Source: Methylibium rhizosphaerae
GTDB lineage: Bacteria > Pseudomonadota > Gammaproteobacteria > Burkholderiales > Burkholderiaceae_C
NCBI RefSeq assembly: GCF_006386545.1
Contig: NZ_SWAR01000010.1
Coordinates: 1 to 64,000, forward strand
Reading direction: 5' to 3'
DNA: 64,000 bases
Below the pieces are notes generated by a model that was not told the DNA's origin, did not search any database, and saw nothing but the letters and a program-made list of their open reading frames with translations. Both the position numbers and the translations under genes were made by a program. Shown here piece by piece: positions 39,805 to 54,419 of this stretch; within the stretch, counting starts at the first letter, position 1; the number at the start of each line of letters is the position of its first letter.

Positions 39805-40629
39805 TCAGGCGGCGGACAGGCGGGCGTACAGGCCCGTGATCTGGTCCATCAACTGAAGGATGTTTTCGCTGCTGGCAAAGACCTGTGCGGCGCGCTGCGA
39901 GGACTTGCCGACTTCGATGCCGCGCTCCAGCGCGTTCTGGAAGAACACCCACTGCTGCTGCGCGAGTTCGAGCTGCTGGTGGATGGCGGGCGTGGCCTCG
40001 GGAGCATCGCGCAGCGTCTTCAGGCCGGCGATGAATTCCTCGCGCGCCTTGTCGAGTTCCTTGCCGGCATCGGGCAAGTCGATCTTCCAGCTCTGCGCCA
40101 GGTAGAACTTCGCCATGCGCTGGGACAGCATGCGCTGGCGGCCCGCCACGTTGACGAGGCGGCCGACCGGCCGGGCCGAATGCTTCTCGAGCTGCACAGT
40201 GCCCTGGTGGGCCAGCTGCAGCACACGGGCATCGAGCGAGATCAGCTGCGGTGCGAGCGGCTTGCCGGGCGCAGCGCCCACCAGCGCCGCCTTGAATTCG
40301 CTCCACACCGCCTCGAGCGACACGTAGGTGGCGCGGATGTCGCTCGTGGGCGCATAGGCCTTCAGCTCGACGAACTGGCGGTCGAACAGCGCCATCGAAT
40401 CGCCCAGGATACGCTGGGCGCGGGCGGGTTCGATCTCCAGGCCGACGGCCAGCCAGGCCTTGGCCATGCGCTGCGACAGCATGCGCTGGCGGCCTGCCTT
40501 GTTGATGGCGTCGTTGATGTCGCCCACCTGCGCCTGCGCGGCGCGGTAAGACGCCGCGAGCGGAGCGCCGGCCAGCGCGACGAGCACGGCGCGGCGGCGC
40601 AGCGGGGAGAGTTGTACTGCCGTGTGCAT
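39805..40629 (-). CDS. Periplasmic PilJ/NarX-like P-box protein in the nitrite reductase operon
   Basis: A 274-residue protein with a twin-arginine-like export signal (LSPLRRRAVLVALAGAPLAASYRAAQAQ) and no later membrane helix, so probably soluble in the periplasm. It has two copies of a motif: INKAGRQRMLSQRMAK (42-57) and VNVAGRQRMLSQRMAK (159-174). These belong to the PilJ N-terminal domain family and resemble the NarX/NarQ P-box (N-x-A-G-x-x-R-M-x-S-x-R), which binds nitrate. There is no output domain. It starts six bases after nirB and precedes nirD. A nitrate or nitrite binding role is inferred from motif and operon. Confidence 0.85.
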   Translation of the reverse strand: MHTAVQLSPLRRRAVLVALAGAPLAASYRAAQAQVGDINDAINKAGRQRMLSQRMAKAWLAVGLEIEPARAQRILGDSMALFDRQFVELKAYAPTSDIRATYVSLEAVWSEFKAALVGAAPGKPLAPQLISLDARVLQLAHQGTVQLEKHSARPVGRLVNVAGRQRMLSQRMAKFYLAQSWKIDLPDAGKELDKAREEFIAGLKTLRDAPEATPAIHQQLELAQQQWVFFQNALERGIEVGKSSQRAAQVFASSENILQLMDQITGLYARLSAA

Positions 40630-43156: not shown

Positions 43157-43174
43157 TAGCAAGCTGGGTGCCAA
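43157..43174 (-). promoter_or_regulatory. Sigma-54 promoter of nirB operon
   Basis: The minus strand reads TTGGCACCCAGCTTGCTA: GG and GC are exactly 10 bases apart, matching TGGCAC-N5-TTGC. The transcript would start near 43148, leaving a leader of about 50 bases. Two TGCACC elements at 43184-43189 and 43200-43205 resemble NtrC half-sites, although they are unusually close to the -24 box. This leader has no ANTAR-type hexaloop hairpins. Confidence 0.82.
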
Positions 43175-43285
43175 AAAAGGGGATGCACCAGAATCGGCGT
43201 GCACCGTTTCTGGGGTCGCTTCTTGCTTCCTCGTGCGCTCGCTCAGCGCAGGAGCCCCGTTCTGGGGCTGAACGACAAGGAAAAC

Positions 43286-45046
43286 ATGAGCTTTGATGTC
43301 GATATCGGCTGGTTCAGTGCACGCGGCCCGCGTGAAGACAACGAGGACTTCGCCGCGGCGGTGCGCCCCGCGCCCCACGATGAGGCGCGCGGCCTGATCG
43401 CCGCCATGGCGGATGGCGTGTCGATGGGCGGCGGCGGCAAGGAAGCCGCGCAGACCACCGTGATGAGCCTGGTGCAGGACTACTTCGGCGCGCCCGAGAC
43501 CTGGGACACGAGCGTGGTGCTCGACCGCCTCATCGGCGCGCAGAACGCCTGGCTGGCCGACCACAACCGGCGCCGCCAGCAGCTGGGCGCTGCGCGGGGC
43601 GGCGGCAGTGCGATGACGACGCTGACTGCGCTGGTGCTGCGCGGTCACAGCTACACGCTGGCCCATGTGGGCGACACGCGCGCGTGGCTGGTACGCGGCG
43701 ACGCGCAGGCCTGCACGCAGCTCAGCCAGGACCACAGCTTCGACCATCCCGACATGCGCAGCCGCCTGACGCGCGCCATCGGCCTGGACGACCACGTGCG
43801 GGTCGACTACCTCCAGGGCGAGCTGCACAGCGGCGACGTCTTCATGCTCACCAGCGACGGCGTGCACGGCATGCTCAAGCGCCGCGTGCTCGCGCAGCAT
43901 GCCGCGGCGGCTCGCGAAGGTTCCGCGCAGGCCGCGGCCGAGGCGCTGGTGCAGGCCGCGCTGGCCGCCGGCAGCCGCGACAACAGCAGCGCGCTGGTCA
44001 TCCATGTGCGCGGCCTCGCGCCGCTGCGGCTGGACGATGCGCTGATGCACGCCCGCCAGCTGCCGGTGCCGCAGCGCCTGAAGGTGGGCGACACGATCGA
44101 CCGCTACACCGTCACCGCGCTGGTGGCCGACACCGGCGTGCACCGCCTCTACCAGGTGCGCGACCTCGAGACCCGCGAGCTGCTGGCGATGAAGACGCTG
44201 CACGAAAGCCGCGCCAGCGACCCGGAAGAACGCGCCATGCTGGCGCACGAGGCCTGGCTGGGCCTGCGGCTCACCCAGCGCTACGGCGAGCACGAGGCCA
44301 GCGGCTTCGTGAGGGTGCGCGAGCCGCGGGAGCCGGGTGCCTTCTACACGTTGTTCGACTGGCATGCCGGCCATACCCTCGAACAGCTGCTGGCCCAGGG
44401 CCGCCGGTTCGAGGTGCACGAGGTCATTGCCGGCGCGCTGGCCGCGGCACGCGCGCTGGGCCGGCTGCACCGGCAGGGCGTGATCCACCGCGACATCAAG
44501 CCGGCCAACCTGCACCTGGGCGACGACGGCCAATGGCGCGTGCTCGACCTGGGTGTGGCCATCTCCGGCAGCGAGCCGGCAGCGCAGCGCGAGCTGCATG
44601 CCGGCACGCCCAGCTACATGAATCCCGAGCAATGGTCGGCCGAGGAGGGCGCCCGCACCGGCGCCACCGCGCAGAGCGACCTGTACGCGCTGGGCGTCAC
44701 GCTCTACCAATGGCTGACCGGCAAGCTGCCCTACGGCGAGATCGAGCCCTACCAGCTGGCGCGCTTTCGCCAGGACCCGCGCGCGCCGTCGCGACTGCGG
44801 CCCGACGTGCCCATCTGGCTCGACAACGTGGTGCAGAAGGCGGTGGCCCGCGACCCGAAGCAGCGCTTCGAGACAGCCGAGGAGATGGTGCTCGCGCTGG
44901 AGCGCGGCGCCTCGCGCCCGCTCGCCGCGCCCGGCGCCACGCCGCTGGCCGTGCGCGACCCGCGCGCACTGTGGCAGATCGCACTGGCGATTTCGTTGAT
45001 GTTCAACGCGCTGCTGGTCGTGTGGCTGCTGTTCCTGCCCCGATGA
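43286..45046 (+). CDS. Bifunctional PP2C phosphatase / Ser-Thr protein kinase
   Basis: A 586-residue protein. Residues 1-245 form a PP2C phosphatase (GPREDNEDF, MADGVSMGGGG, HVGDTRAWLVR, LTSDGVHGML, SRDNSSALVI). Residues about 265-540 form a Hanks-type kinase (VHRLYQVRDLETRELLAMK for the lysine, HRDIKPANLHLG for the catalytic loop, and LDLGVAIS, with DLG in place of DFG). A single C-terminal membrane helix (LWQIALAISLMFNALLVVWLLFLP) anchors it. Related kinases sit beside nitrate assimilation genes in other proteobacteria. Here it lies divergent from nirB and convergent with narK; a regulatory role in nitrogen use is plausible but not shown. Confidence 0.92.
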   Translation: MSFDVDIGWFSARGPREDNEDFAAAVRPAPHDEARGLIAAMADGVSMGGGGKEAAQTTVMSLVQDYFGAPETWDTSVVLDRLIGAQNAWLADHNRRRQQLGAARGGGSAMTTLTALVLRGHSYTLAHVGDTRAWLVRGDAQACTQLSQDHSFDHPDMRSRLTRAIGLDDHVRVDYLQGELHSGDVFMLTSDGVHGMLKRRVLAQHAAAAREGSAQAAAEALVQAALAAGSRDNSSALVIHVRGLAPLRLDDALMHARQLPVPQRLKVGDTIDRYTVTALVADTGVHRLYQVRDLETRELLAMKTLHESRASDPEERAMLAHEAWLGLRLTQRYGEHEASGFVRVREPREPGAFYTLFDWHAGHTLEQLLAQGRRFEVHEVIAGALAAARALGRLHRQGVIHRDIKPANLHLGDDGQWRVLDLGVAISGSEPAAQRELHAGTPSYMNPEQWSAEEGARTGATAQSDLYALGVTLYQWLTGKLPYGEIEPYQLARFRQDPRAPSRLRPDVPIWLDNVVQKAVARDPKQRFETAEEMVLALERGASRPLAAPGATPLAVRDPRALWQIALAISLMFNALLVVWLLFLPR

Positions 45047-45201: not shown

Positions 45202-46482
45202 TCAGGCGCTGCGTTCCATGCCCTGCACGGCGGGCTTCTGAGCAACGTCGTGTGCGGCGGCTCTCGCCCGGCCACCCTTTTCGGCCCAGGTGCGCGTCCA
45301 GCGGATCTGCATCACCCGCATCATCAACAGCACTGCGACCGCGAGCACGGCAAAGAACACGAAGCCCCAGGCGTAGCTGCCGGTGTATTGCTTCGACAGG
45401 CCCATCGCGTTGGGCACGAGGCCGCCGCCCAGCGCGCCGATCTCGCCGATCATGGAGCCGGCCACCGCGGTGGTGAGCGGCCAGCGCAGCGGCACCAGCT
45501 GGAAGAGCGCGCCGTTGCCGGCGCCCAGCGCCGAGAAGCAGACCATGAACAGCAGCGTGGTGGCGGCCAGCGAGGCTGAGGCGAAGCCGCACAGCACCAG
45601 CGTCCCCGCCACGATGACCAGCACCGCGGTGAGGGTGTTGATGCCGCCCAGCCGGTCGGAGATCCAGCCGCCGAACACCCGCACGGCCGCGGCCATGAAG
45701 GCGGCCAGCATCGTCAGCTGCCCCGCCTGCACCTTGCTGACGCCGAACTGGTCGTAGTAGTAGGTGGGCAGGAAGGTGGTGAGGCCGATGAAGCCGCCGA
45801 AGGTGACGCCGTAGATGAGGCTGAAGGCCCAGCCGTCCTTTTCGAACAGGCAGGCGATGTGTTCGCGGAAGCTGGCGTGGGCGTCGAGGTCGGGCGGCTC
45901 CTTGGCGAACACGATCATCACCAGCATCGGCAGCAGGATGGCGGCGGCCGCGAAGCCGTAGACCGTCTGCCAGCCGAAGGCCTGGGCCAGCGGCGGGGCC
46001 ACCAGCACCGACACCGCGGTGCCGACGTTGCCGGCGCCGACCAGGCCCATGGCGAGTCCCTTGTGGCGCGGCGGGAACCAGCCGGAGCCCAGCGACAGCG
46101 CCACGCCGAAGCTGGCGCCGGCGATGCCCAGCAGCACGCCCATGGCCAGCAGGTCGTTGAAGCTCTTCACCATGAAGAAGCCGTACAGCATGGCGACCGC
46201 GATGAGGCCCATCTCGACCAGCGTGGCGTTCTTGCGGCCGATGTACTGCGCGAGCACGCCGAGCGGAAAGCGCATCAGCGCGCCGGCGATGATCGGGATC
46301 GACAGCATCAGCCCCTTCTGCGCAGGCGTGAGCTGGTAGGTCTCTGTGATGAACGGCGCCATCGCACCGTTGAGCACCCAGATGCAGCAGGAGAACGCGA
46401 AGTACAGGAACGCCGCGAACAGCGTCGGCGCGTGGCCGGAGCGGAGAAAACTTCTGAAGCCGGACATGAGTGGGCTCGCCAT
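45202..46482 (-). CDS. NarK/NasA-type nitrate/nitrite MFS transporter
   Basis: A 426-residue twelve-helix permease of the nitrate-nitrite porter family: TLFAAFLYFAFSCCIWVLNGAMAPFITETYQLTPAQKGLMLSIPIIAGALMRFPLG and the Gly-rich LSLGSGWFPPRHKGLAMGLVGAGNVGTAVSVLVAPPLA, equivalent to the nitrate signature. It should import nitrate for NasA and NirBD. ATG at 46482 or an in-frame ATG at 46467 may start translation. Its mRNA has a sigma-54 promoter and a two-hairpin ANTAR-type leader. Confidence 0.92.
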   Translation of the reverse strand: MASPLMSGFRSFLRSGHAPTLFAAFLYFAFSCCIWVLNGAMAPFITETYQLTPAQKGLMLSIPIIAGALMRFPLGVLAQYIGRKNATLVEMGLIAVAMLYGFFMVKSFNDLLAMGVLLGIAGASFGVALSLGSGWFPPRHKGLAMGLVGAGNVGTAVSVLVAPPLAQAFGWQTVYGFAAAAILLPMLVMIVFAKEPPDLDAHASFREHIACLFEKDGWAFSLIYGVTFGGFIGLTTFLPTYYYDQFGVSKVQAGQLTMLAAFMAAAVRVFGGWISDRLGGINTLTAVLVIVAGTLVLCGFASASLAATTLLFMVCFSALGAGNGALFQLVPLRWPLTTAVAGSMIGEIGALGGGLVPNAMGLSKQYTGSYAWGFVFFAVLAVAVLLMMRVMQIRWTRTWAEKGGRARAAAHDVAQKPAVQGMERSA

Positions 46483-46530
46483 GGAGTTGGGCCCCGCACC
46501 GGAAGGCGGCGGGGCTTGACGGCACATGGC

Positions 46531-46595
46531 TGCGCACGGCGGTGTGCGCATGACCGGCGGTGCTGTTGCACGGTCCGGGTGCAGCGGTACACCCG
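46531..46595 (-). promoter_or_regulatory. ANTAR-type antitermination leader: tandem hexaloop hairpins
   Basis: In the minus-strand transcript, P1 (46595-46576) is CGGGTGT-ACCGCT-GCACCCG and P2 (46550-46531) is TGCGCAC-ACCGCC-GTGCGCA. Each has a 7-bp stem (P1 closes with a T-G pair) and a six-base loop with A at position 1 and G at position 4, 25 bases apart. This is the two-hairpin motif bound by ANTAR antiterminators such as NasR and EutV. P1 begins about five bases after the start predicted from the sigma-54 promoter. A further GCCCCGC/GCGGGGC stem (46515-46491) follows before the ATG but lacks a U-run, so the controlled terminator is not clear. Confidence 0.82.
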
Positions 46596-46610
46596 AGTGC
46601 GTGGTGCGAC

Positions 46611-46627
46611 GCAACAACCGTGCCAAG
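46611..46627 (-). promoter_or_regulatory. Sigma-54 promoter of the narK-type gene
   Basis: The minus strand reads CTTGGCACGGTTGTTGC: GG and GC are 10 bases apart and the match to TGGCACG-N4-TTGC is essentially perfect. Predicted transcription start is near 46600, immediately before the P1 hairpin. The promoter lies about 90 bases from the divergent ANTAR gene. Confidence 0.85.
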
Positions 46628-46718: not shown

Positions 46719-47993
46719 GTGACTTCCGTTCTTGTCGCCCAGGACCCCGCACCCGGCTCGCCGGTGCTGGCCGACGACCTCGCGGCCGCCGGATTTCACG
46801 TCCTTGGTGCCAGCGCCTGCGACAACCTGGTGCGCGACGCCCTGCGTAGCAACCCCGACGTGCTGGTGTGCTGGCAGCCGCGGCCGGCGGAGCCTTTTTT
46901 CACGGCCCTTGCCACCGTGCAGGCCAACGCGCCCCTGCCGGTGGTGGTGTTCACCGCCGATCCGGAAGTCGAGGCCATGGAGAAGGCGCTGGAAGCGGGC
47001 GTGCAGTGCTGGGAAGTGCAGGGCTACCAGCCGCAGCGCCTGCGCGCGGTGGTACAGCTGGCGCAGGCGCGCTTCCGGCATGAACGCACGCAGCGCGAGG
47101 CCCTGGCCGACCTCAGCAGCCGCTTCGAGGAGCGCAAGCTGGTCGATCGCGCCAAGGGCATCCTGATGCGCTCGCAGCAGCTGTCGGAGGAGGAGGCCTT
47201 CCGCCTGCTGCGCAATGCCTCGATGCACGGCAACCAGCGGGTCGGCCAGGTGTCGCAGCAGATCATCGACATGGCCCGCTATGCCGACGCCATCAACCGC
47301 GCGGGCCAGCTGCGCATGCTGTCGCAGCGGCTCGTGAAGCTGTATGCGCTGGGCTGCGCCGGCACCGATGCACAGGCCACCCGCGCGCTGCTGCTGCAGT
47401 CGGTGGAGCGGGTGGATGCGAACCTCGCGGCGCTTGCCAAGCTGCTGTCGCGCCCGACCTTCGGCGATCTGCTCGATGCGGCGCTGGAGCCCTGGGGCGA
47501 GTTGCGCACCGTGCTGGCGGCGCCCGCCGAAGCGGCCCGGCTGCAGTCGCTCGATGAACGGGCCGAACGCCTGCTCACCCAGGCCGAGCGCCTGACCGCA
47601 GCACTGGAGACCGGCGGCCTGGCCAGCACGCTGCACGTGATCAACGTCTGCGGCCGCCAGCGCATGCTGTCGCAGCGGCTGGCCAAGCAGGCGCTGCTGT
47701 CGCACCTGCTGCAGGGCACGGCCGCGCGGGGTGCCGAAGCCGAGGCGCGCCGCATCGTCGCCGAGTTCGACCAGGCGCTGCAGTACCTGGGCGGCGTGCC
47801 GCTGTCCACCCGAGACATCCGCGAGGGCCTGGCCACGGCGGCGCGCACCTGGGGCGCCATGCTGGCGGCGGTGCAGCGTGTGCACGAGGCCGACGGCCGG
47901 CTGTCGCTGGCCGGCAGCAGCGAAGCGCTGCTGGAACTGTTCGACCGGCTCACCGGCCAGTACGAGCACAGCATGCAGGGCCTGATCGGCTGA
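46719..47993 (+). CDS. ANTAR RNA-binding regulator with pseudo-receiver and two P-box motifs
   Basis: A 424-residue soluble protein. Residues 1-115 have a receiver-like fold, but the phospho-acceptor position in DVLVCWQP is Cys/Trp, so phosphorylation is unlikely. Residues about 135-190 are an ANTAR domain (EERKLVDRAKGILMRSQQLSEEEAFRLLRNASMHGNQRVGQVSQQII). Two PilJ/NarX-type motifs follow: INRAGQLRMLSQRLVK (192-207) and INVCGRQRMLSQRLAK (308-323). The protein should bind hexaloop RNA and sense a small anion, by analogy with NasR, which uses a different (NIT) sensor. GTG start at 46719. It is divergent from the narK leader that carries its likely target. Confidence 0.9.
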   Translation: MTSVLVAQDPAPGSPVLADDLAAAGFHVLGASACDNLVRDALRSNPDVLVCWQPRPAEPFFTALATVQANAPLPVVVFTADPEVEAMEKALEAGVQCWEVQGYQPQRLRAVVQLAQARFRHERTQREALADLSSRFEERKLVDRAKGILMRSQQLSEEEAFRLLRNASMHGNQRVGQVSQQIIDMARYADAINRAGQLRMLSQRLVKLYALGCAGTDAQATRALLLQSVERVDANLAALAKLLSRPTFGDLLDAALEPWGELRTVLAAPAEAARLQSLDERAERLLTQAERLTAALETGGLASTLHVINVCGRQRMLSQRLAKQALLSHLLQGTAARGAEAEARRIVAEFDQALQYLGGVPLSTRDIREGLATAARTWGAMLAAVQRVHEADGRLSLAGSSEALLELFDRLTGQYEHSMQGLIG

Positions 47994-53234: not shown

Positions 53235-53390
53235 GCAGGGAAGGTGTCCGCCGCGAGCCGAGAGCCGCATTCCTGAACCCAGGGGATTCAGGTGGGCGAG
53301 GTCAGAAAGGCTTCGGGTTCATCTGACGCGAGACGATCGCACCAGCCAGTCGATGTTCCAGGCCCTTGCTCGAGGAGCATCGGTTCAAGG
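53235..53390 (-). ncRNA. ssrS: 6S RNA (SsrS), approximate limits
   Basis: Between zapA and the EVE gene the minus strand has the 6S hallmarks GAAGCCTTTCTGA followed by CACCTGAATCCCCTGGGTTCAGG, close to the E. coli 3' half (GAAGCCUU...CACCUUGAACC..GGGUUCAAGG). The location downstream of zapA is the conserved site. A TATATT -10 box (53397-53392) gives a start near 53385. The closing stem could not be paired convincingly, and about 150 bases is shorter than usual, so the ends are uncertain. Confidence 0.6.
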
Positions 53391-53493
53391 AAATATAAAA
53401 CTCCCGCGAACGCGACGGACGAATCCATTCTAGAGCGTGAGCGTGGCCATCAAGCGCCCTACCCGTGCGCCGAAAGGGCCAAGTTCTTCACGT

Positions 53494-54054: not shown

Positions 54055-54126
54055 CGGTCCTCCGGCCTCGCCTACAACCTTGCGGCATTGTAGGGGGCCG
54101 TTCGGGCGGCCTTTACAATTTGCCGC

Positions 54127-54335
54127 GTTGGTGCTCGTGCCGGTGTTCACGCCGGCACGGTTAAACGGGAAGCAGGAAGGTCGTGCCGTCGCCACGACAC
54201 CACCCAACCTGCGCTGCCCCCGCAACGGTAAGCGGACGGGATCTCACCTCCCACCCTGCGCACAAGCCACTGGAGGGCCCGCCCCTCTGGGAAGGTCGCA
54301 CGGGTTGTTCCGCCAGCCCGGATACCGGCCAACCG
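54127..54335 (+). promoter_or_regulatory. Cobalamin riboswitch
   Basis: Conserved blocks appear in order: GCCGGCACGGTTAAACGGGAA (near 54150-54170), GCGCTGCCCCCGCAACGGTAAG (54211-54232), ACAAGCCACTGG (54262-54273), GGGAAGGTCGC (54289-54299) and the B12 box CAGCCCGGATACCGGCC (54314-54330). A strong hairpin GGTGCCGCG/CGCGGCGCC (54339-54364) follows as a possible expression platform. It should repress btuB and the downstream operon when adenosylcobalamin is plentiful. A TACAAT -10-like box is at 54114-54119. Confidence 0.94.
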
Positions 54336-54419
54336 GGGGTGCCGCGCGTTTCGCACGCGGCGCCGTATCGCATGTGCCTGCGGGGAAGCTGGCGCGTGCA
54401 TCGTTGTCCTTCCTTCGTC

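Follow-up and report, generated by a model that had tools for sequence, protein, structure and literature searches.

The closest described precedent for the locus considered here comes from K. oxytoca, whose nas genes are under the control of both the Ntr system and NasR (PMC5424462, PMC8467165). Dual control by Ntr and a nitrate-responsive ANTAR protein, established there for nasF and NasR, is not new in itself, and passages of a 2012 report predicted ANTAR leaders in front of nitrate-transporter and nitrite-reductase genes, some of them lacking terminators (PMC3369931). As to how such leaders are recognized, an A at the first position of the hexanucleotide loop was found important in three sources, one of them a NasR SELEX study (PMC3369931, PMC3369936, PMC7496416); the contact section of the EutV-RNA structure report describes base contacts to the G at the fourth position (G4), made by R142, K149, E160 and Y164, and names none to the A at the first (A1), and the same report proposes from the structure an ANTAR site with a single hexaloop (PMC8934654). 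Actinobacterial and mycobacterial ANTAR RNAs lying near starts are described in parts of PMC8164766 as thought to act on translation. For the sensing of nitrate by a PilJ domain, the N-box of McpN is given as [IVL][ND]xAGxQRML[ST]Q in PMC6381276. The open-licence literature that we searched yielded no title on a regulator combining PilJ and ANTAR domains; passages of PMC8199190 cite both McpN and NasR. What is new here is the predicted pairing of a PilJ-sensing ANTAR regulator with a terminator-free leader of four hairpins.

The window, by which we mean the whole 64,000-nt stretch analysed, comprises positions 1-64,000 of contig NZ_SWAR01000010.1 of Methylibium rhizosphaerae (GCF_006386545.1). 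An earlier note on this DNA had placed a leader before a nitrate transporter and opposite an ANTAR gene. The minus-strand gene at 45202-46467 encodes a narK-type MFS nitrate/nitrite transporter (Pfam MFS_1, 9.5e-38), and the divergent gene carries an ANTAR domain. The narK start is most likely the ATG at 46467, because homologues begin MSxFKxF or alike; an alternative in-frame ATG lies at 46482.

Transcription of narK appears to begin at a sigma-54 promoter. The minus-strand -24/-12 element (TTGGCACGGTTGTTGC, 46611-46626) fits TGGCACGN4TTGC with no mismatches, so that the box reported as near-perfect is in fact perfect; it is unique within the window at that stringency, the other 31 listed matches carrying one or two mismatches, and it has the form TGGCAC-N5-TTGC with 10 bp from GG to GC. 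From this spacing, the narK transcript should start near 46599. Among related leaders the box is present in 49 of 49 distinct sequences with a score of 8-10 out of 10 (1.4% of shuffles reach at least 8), and scores 9 or 10 in 46 of them (0.13% of shuffles); the promoter was left out of the covariance model described below. In 31 of the 49, the first hairpin begins at the predicted +1, exactly 26 nt past the T of TGG. Partial resemblances to an NtrC site are seen in 46 of the 49 leaders, in excess of the 62% seen in shuffles, many of them 150-270 nt upstream in conserved ANTAR coding sequence; because that conservation may explain the matches, we claim no NtrC activator site.

The neighbouring nirB has a -24/-12 box of its own (TGGCACCCAGCTTGC, 43159-43173, minus strand, one mismatch), with a short leader in which no hexaloop was obvious by eye. 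One opposite-strand gene separates narK from nirB, encoding a PP2C phosphatase fused to a Ser/Thr kinase (43199-45046, plus strand); a gene 54-71% identical to it lies in the cluster of many related loci, in some of them beside the ANTAR gene instead.

The leader itself opens with P1 (46576-46595, minus strand), at the predicted 5' end of the transcript: a 7-bp stem formed by CGGGTGT and GCACCCG around the loop ACCGCT. P2 (46531-46550, minus strand) is likewise a 7-bp stem, TGCGCAC and GTGCGCA around ACCGCC, seen in the sequence and by RNAfold, and both loops have A1 and G4, much as the earlier note described them. P1 and P2 together fit the accepted description of an ANTAR target, a pair of hairpins whose stems have 3 bp or more and whose six-nucleotide loops have G4. 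The gap of about 10 bases given between the promoter's GC and the first hairpin needs correction: the P1 stem starts 16 nt past the GC, and the shorter figure is reached only by counting the flanking GCAC at 46600. Nor are the two hairpins, both present in the window, the whole leader, as they are joined by two more, and some ten relatives show P1 only. A middle hairpin (GACCG...CGGTC, 46552-46575, minus strand; RNAfold and pairing statistics) lies between P1 and P2, and P4, a GC-rich GCCCCGC/GCGGGGC hairpin without a U-run, precedes the start codon (46491-46515, minus strand). Just 3' of P2, RNAalifold marks a GUGC (46522-46525, minus strand) as a candidate partner of the GCAC in the middle loop (46563-46560). 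All four hairpins form in the RNAfold structure of 46600-46475 (-63.1 kcal/mol, z -2.98), in which A1 and U6 of the P1 loop are also paired, leaving a loop of 4 nt; in a longer, 163-nt fold the middle hairpin pairs differently. Rfam offers no relevant family for the leader, whether the window is searched at gathering score or the leader alone with E values up to 10; elsewhere in the window it identifies a cobalamin riboswitch (54112-54347, plus strand, 74.4 bits) and a 6S RNA (53241-53424, minus strand, 47.8 bits).

The check proposed in the earlier note, a covariance search of homologous leaders, was run, and found the -24/-12 box and the hairpins conserved with covariation. The covariance model comprised P1, the middle hairpin and P2 and was built from 14 leaders, with the window in the training set. 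In the window's own 6.2-Mb genome the narK leader is the sole strong match (E 4.6e-13; next best, E 0.31); matches occur in 45 of 399 genomes of the family and in 3 of 300 genomes sampled from the order, all three in the same family. Pairing was assessed in an alignment of 50 leaders (45 from these genomes and five from named loci) fitted to the model, of which 47 are distinct. Across these 47, 92.0% of cells are paired, compared with 80.3% in shuffles, and double changes are seen at 14 of 19 pairs, with 103 double-change cells where shuffles give 33.8; sliding the partner strand by one column lowers pairing to 28-33%. An unfitted MAFFT alignment of the 14 leaders gives 92.7% against 81.2% in shuffles. 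Each stem contributes: among the 47, P1 has 93.8% of cells paired and double changes at five of seven pairs, the middle hairpin 86.0% and four of five, and P2 94.5% and five of seven.

The loops are conserved more selectively. G4 is present in 50 of 50 rows for P1 and 50 of 50 for P2 (one P2 loop being 7 letters long), and position 1 is divided equally between A and G in P1 (25 rows each) and is A in 35 rows and G in 15 in P2. Of the recognition motif as first put forward, A1 with G4, the G therefore holds throughout, but the A, true of both loops in the window, is not general among related leaders. At 25 of 26 loci beside a PilJ-ANTAR gene, a hairpin of at least 5 bp with an RNNGNN hexaloop starts between +1 and +7, compared with 0.96% of shuffles, and its position is not due to chance; one near-identical locus was dropped from this set, the rest of which are still related and not independent.

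For the candidate GCAC/GUGC helix the picture is more mixed. Paired cells (81.3% against 75.6% in shuffles) and double-change cells (14 against 4.0) both exceed all of 500 shuffles, whereas the number of pairs with double changes (63/500) and of pair types (127/500) do not stand above shuffles, and a slide of -2 columns still leaves 67% paired. We regard this helix as less certain than P1, the middle hairpin and P2 because two of five measures are ordinary and the slide is tolerated; it could be a pseudoknot or an alternative partner of the post-P2 strand.

The divergent gene (46719-47993, plus strand) encodes a pseudo-receiver followed by an ANTAR domain (residues 131-183; PF03861, 69.3 bits against a cut-off of 27.3) and a pair of PilJ domains whose N-box-like motifs lie at 192 and 308; Pfam identifies the ANTAR and PilJ domains. 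The name pseudo-receiver was chosen because the domain appears on inspection to lack a phosphoryl-acceptor Asp, with VLVCW at the expected place. A profile of 26 homologues searched against the PDB matches Rv1626, EutV, NasR, AmiR and the PilJ domain of McpN, the last (structure 6gcv) at E 2.5e-10. In an AlphaFold2 model (pLDDT 87, pTM 0.64, 9 sequences) strands and helices alternate as in a receiver and are followed by a long helix, then by eight helices that by our own reading would fit two four-helix bundles. In this model the last ANTAR helix (from residue 175) runs unbroken into the first PilJ helix (to 214), which may offer a direct path for a nitrate signal. The top Foldseek match of the regulator is RNA-bound EutV (6ww6), and the best 50 matches, which cover the receiver and ANTAR part, include no PilJ structure.

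Both the RNA-binding and the sensory features can be followed to single residues. The regulator retains the positions by which EutV holds G4, as read from a HMMER alignment: R139 (26 of 26 homologues), K146 (25 of 26), E157 (E in 23, D in 3) and F161 (F in 25, Y in 1), the change from Y to F being conservative. Its N-boxes, INRAGQLRMLSQ and INVCGRQRMLSQ, each agree with the McpN pattern at 11 of 12 positions; the nitrate-binding Arg of both is present in all 26 homologues, six of which match the pattern in full in one domain. NasR-type architecture was not found, as Pfam gives no NIT match and the PilJ domains are C-terminal to ANTAR. A separate PilJ protein with a likely export signal, judged by eye, is encoded beside nirB (39805-40629, minus strand); by eye its N-boxes, INKAGRQRMLSQ and VNVAGRQRMLSQ, fit the published nitrate N-box exactly, and homologues of it adjoin nirB at six related loci (L034, L045, L096-L098 and L104).

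Regulator and leader largely, but not strictly, travel together. At E 1e-30, 21 of 150 genomes of the family, the window's genome among them, have a PilJ-ANTAR homologue, and so do eight named loci, from Rhizobacter, Caldimonas, Aquabacterium and Roseateles among others. Within these first 150 genomes, taken as part of the 399, the leader is matched in 10 of the 21 with the regulator and in 5 of the 129 without. Behind the leader beside PilJ-ANTAR, the next recognized gene is narK or nirB at 26 of 27 loci, window included; at L043 the contig ends before the next recognized gene. Of the 45 leader-bearing genomes, 37 have a full-length PilJ-ANTAR, nine from the first survey and 28 of 36 rechecked, and a match spanning ANTAR is present in each of the 36 rechecked genomes, which include G056. 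In that genome the leader next to PilJ-ANTAR (L038) has no P1 by strict scan, and a model-type leader stands elsewhere, before nirB. In the eight leader-bearing genomes without PilJ-ANTAR, the match is shorter and limited to a stretch that includes ANTAR: in G096 and G108 it is a NasR-type NIT-ANTAR protein, and the leader lies immediately before nirB; in G090, G102, G128, G182, G275 and G329 the best match spans only residues ~19-189, NasT-like in extent. Exchange is seen even within genera: in g97, G096 is without PilJ-ANTAR and G197 has it; in g91, G090 and G329 are without and G192, G266 and G387 with; in g129, G128 is without and G219, G289 and G351 with. From these eight genomes we conclude that no single regulator accompanies the leader throughout.

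Beyond the family, the 300-genome order sample has one full-length PilJ-ANTAR, in G610; six other matches from non-family genomes extend over only about residues 4-205. The class sample of 369 genomes gives two PilJ-ANTAR matches, both inside the family, and a plasmid search returned one record covering at least 80% of the regulator, at 38.7% identity. In G610 the PilJ-ANTAR gene faces narK, and an AGGCAC-N5-TTGC box lies 26 nt before a hairpin with hexaloop AACGGC (L106:1180-1400, minus strand); this leader matches the covariance model weakly (E 0.005). The window's genome has, besides, a third and weaker ANTAR gene (L003, G000:C133:44457-44585, 31.7 bits), by eye with a receiver-like start and adjoining histidine-kinase-like genes.

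Downstream of P2 this leader departs from the textbook form. In leaders of the nasF and eut type, P2 overlaps the 5' arm of a U-run terminator; in the window's narK leader no terminator was found, P2 does not overlap the P4 stem, and the stem of P4 (46515-46491) indeed has no U-run, as the earlier note suspected when it could see no obvious terminator to overcome. Its further suggestion, that the mechanism may differ from that of nasF, gains weight across the class: terminator-like sites occur in 8 of 47 two-hexaloop leaders, not above the background of 11 in 100 shuffles made from 20 of them. The tail of P4 is not T-rich (T content 0.220 against a background of 0.215 in 37 leaders). In 19 of the 22 clusters of leaders the P4 region folds more stably than its shuffles (p 6e-5; mean z -1.12, with -0.29 for a control region), although z is only -0.47 in the cluster to which the window belongs.

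The strand following P2 might instead reach the narK start. In minimum-free-energy folds GCCAUG (46530-46525) pairs with the CAUGGC at the first in-frame ATG, 46482 (46478-46483, minus strand), a pairing that would cover this ATG and part of the GGCGAG sequence, resembling a Shine-Dalgarno (SD) site, before the ATG at 46467. Over 22 clusters, the post-P2 segment pairs with the first start region slightly better than shuffled segments do (p 0.043) and no better than other parts of the leader (p 0.34). Simple sequestration of the ribosome-binding site by this element, strong at one locus (L029, 0/300 shuffles) and weak class-wide, was set aside and is kept as a guess only. By eye, in four leaders (L027, L029, L035 and L039) a strong SD (GGAG) precedes a short ORF that lies between P4 and a narK start that itself lacks a clear SD, which could allow translational coupling via the leader ORF.

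Some relatives show a simpler leader beside the same protein. At L030, L031, L043, L044 and L046-L051, P1 was found and no second RNNGNN hairpin of at least 5 bp was present at the expected place; their R1 matches are weak (E 0.016-0.54, for those among the matches listed). Other loci are intermediate: L034, L035, L036 and L039 have an imperfect P2 accepted by the model and missed by the strict scan, at L042 the sole hexaloop hairpin is distant, at +110, L045 gives a partial model match (7e-4), and at L038 both hairpins are absent under the strict scan. Thirteen leaders are without a clear P2, and six of these have a terminator-like site, with a clear stem and U-run in four (L030, L031, L050 and L051). 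The P1-only leaders provide natural evidence relevant to the single-hexaloop site proposed in PMC8934654.

It is highly probable, in our judgement, that the narK leader is a genuine ANTAR target of the neighbouring nitrate sensor, and control of narK by sigma-54 together with a nitrate-responsive ANTAR protein is very likely. In the explanation that we favour, nitrogen limitation would fire the sigma-54 promoter, as its -24/-12 box suggests, with NtrC presumably as activator, and the narK RNA would begin at P1 or within a few bases of it. The PilJ-ANTAR protein would bind nitrate through its PilJ N-boxes and become competent to bind RNA, gripping the outward-facing G4 of both hexaloops; as the homologous NasR and EutV suggest, binding would raise narK expression after initiation. 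The output step is probably not of the nasF/EutV type, because P2 overlaps no intrinsic terminator. Our leading guess is that P1 and P2, once bound, would determine how the post-P2 strand and P4 fold, freeing the narK start for ribosomes. Taken whole, we think this account somewhat more probable than not; a translational output considered by itself is plausible, but we would not put it as high as an even chance.

Transcript termination, at a hairpin poor in U or through Rho, has almost the same likelihood as an output at the start region. P4 could be a terminator lacking a good U-tract, or Rho could act, with ANTAR binding to P1/P2 preventing it, and this transcription attenuation is a reading that we entertain with some doubt. 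The fourth hairpin is statistically present in the leader class, the nasF leader of K. oxytoca is a terminator system (PMC3369936), a NasT-type leader in the window's own genome works so by its anatomy, and terminator-like sites mark six of the 13 leaders without a clear P2, four of them clearly; yet such sites are no commoner in dual-hairpin leaders than in shuffles (8/47 against 11/100), T is not enriched past P4 (0.220 against 0.215 in 37 leaders), and P2 and the P4 stem of the window do not overlap. A different doubt concerns the regulator. The eight leader-bearing genomes without PilJ-ANTAR (two with NIT-ANTAR, six with only a NasT-like match), and the presence in the window's genome of a NasT-like receiver-ANTAR gene, named by eye, would be explained if a NasT-like protein encoded elsewhere mainly served the leader, leaving PilJ-ANTAR a bystander or with another target. 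We think this unlikely: narK or nirB comes next behind the leader beside PilJ-ANTAR at 26 of 27 loci, the genome's NasT-like gene has a canonical leader of its own at an nrtA-like gene, and the genome holds no second strong copy of the narK-type leader. Less probable still is that sigma-54 alone controls narK and that the hairpins merely stabilize the RNA 5' end or are remnants; although nirB of the same cluster has a sigma-54 box and, by eye, no hexaloop leader, the retention of G4 in 50 of 50 rows while the stems covary, and the tracking of ANTAR genes by the leader, argue against it.

A bolder reading, which we advance tentatively and hold to be less probable than not, is that these RNAs form a terminator-free proteobacterial class of ANTAR leader with a pseudoknotted start-region switch, passed among PilJ-ANTAR, NIT-ANTAR and NasT proteins and with a single-hexaloop sister group. 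If it is true, a sigma-54 transcript would begin directly with a protein-binding hairpin, the GCAC/GUGC helix and middle hairpin would govern the start region, the RNA would have been handed from sensor to sensor even within one genus, and the site of the sister group would be the minimal site proposed from the EutV-RNA structure.

Set beside the system of K. oxytoca, the favoured explanation for narK shares initiation by Ntr, an ANTAR protein that responds to nitrate, a pair of G4-bearing hexaloop hairpins and a place among nitrate assimilation genes, and G096 and G108 go further in pairing a NIT-ANTAR gene with the narK-type leader. The P2 of nasF, however, overlaps an intrinsic terminator, whereas the narK leader has none, adds a middle hairpin and P4, and may have G at loop position 1; and where NasR has an N-terminal NIT domain, the narK regulator has tandem PilJ domains at its C terminus. 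The NasT-type leader of the same genome (L052:9560-9714, minus strand, G000:C107), before the nrtA-like gene (named by eye), also has a sigma-54 box and P1 and P2 loops AACGGC, its P1 stem being AGGGATC and GATCCCT, but its P2 arm of 3 bp lies within a strong T-run terminator, unlike the free 7-bp P2 of narK. At a Roseateles locus a second leader, beside a NasT-like gene (L031:10505-10350, minus strand), has a sigma-54 box, AACGGC and AAAGGC hexaloops and a T-run terminator. EutV, which acts on the eut leaders of Enterococcus, resembles the narK regulator in its receiver fold joined to ANTAR, is its best structural match and has its G4-contact residues kept there; it is phosphorylated and overcomes terminators, however, whereas the narK regulator appears to have no acceptor Asp and carries PilJ sensors. 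In actinobacterial and mycobacterial ANTAR RNAs the dual stem covers the ribosome-binding site or start and binding represses, in contrast to narK, where P1 and P2 lie upstream and activation would be expected. With McpN, the nitrate chemoreceptor of P. aeruginosa, the regulator shares the profile match to 6gcv and a nearly identical N-box with its nitrate-binding Arg, but its N-boxes differ at one of 12 positions each, its PilJ domains are fused to an RNA-binding domain, and inspection finds no obvious membrane segment. The comparison suggests one logic, in which nitrogen hunger starts the RNA and nitrate permits its use, with the sensor swapped and the RNA kept, in a leader class whose output step looks unlike textbook antitermination. 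It raises testable questions about how ANTAR proteins act without a terminator in Gram-negatives and about natural counterparts of the single-hexaloop site put forward in PMC8934654.
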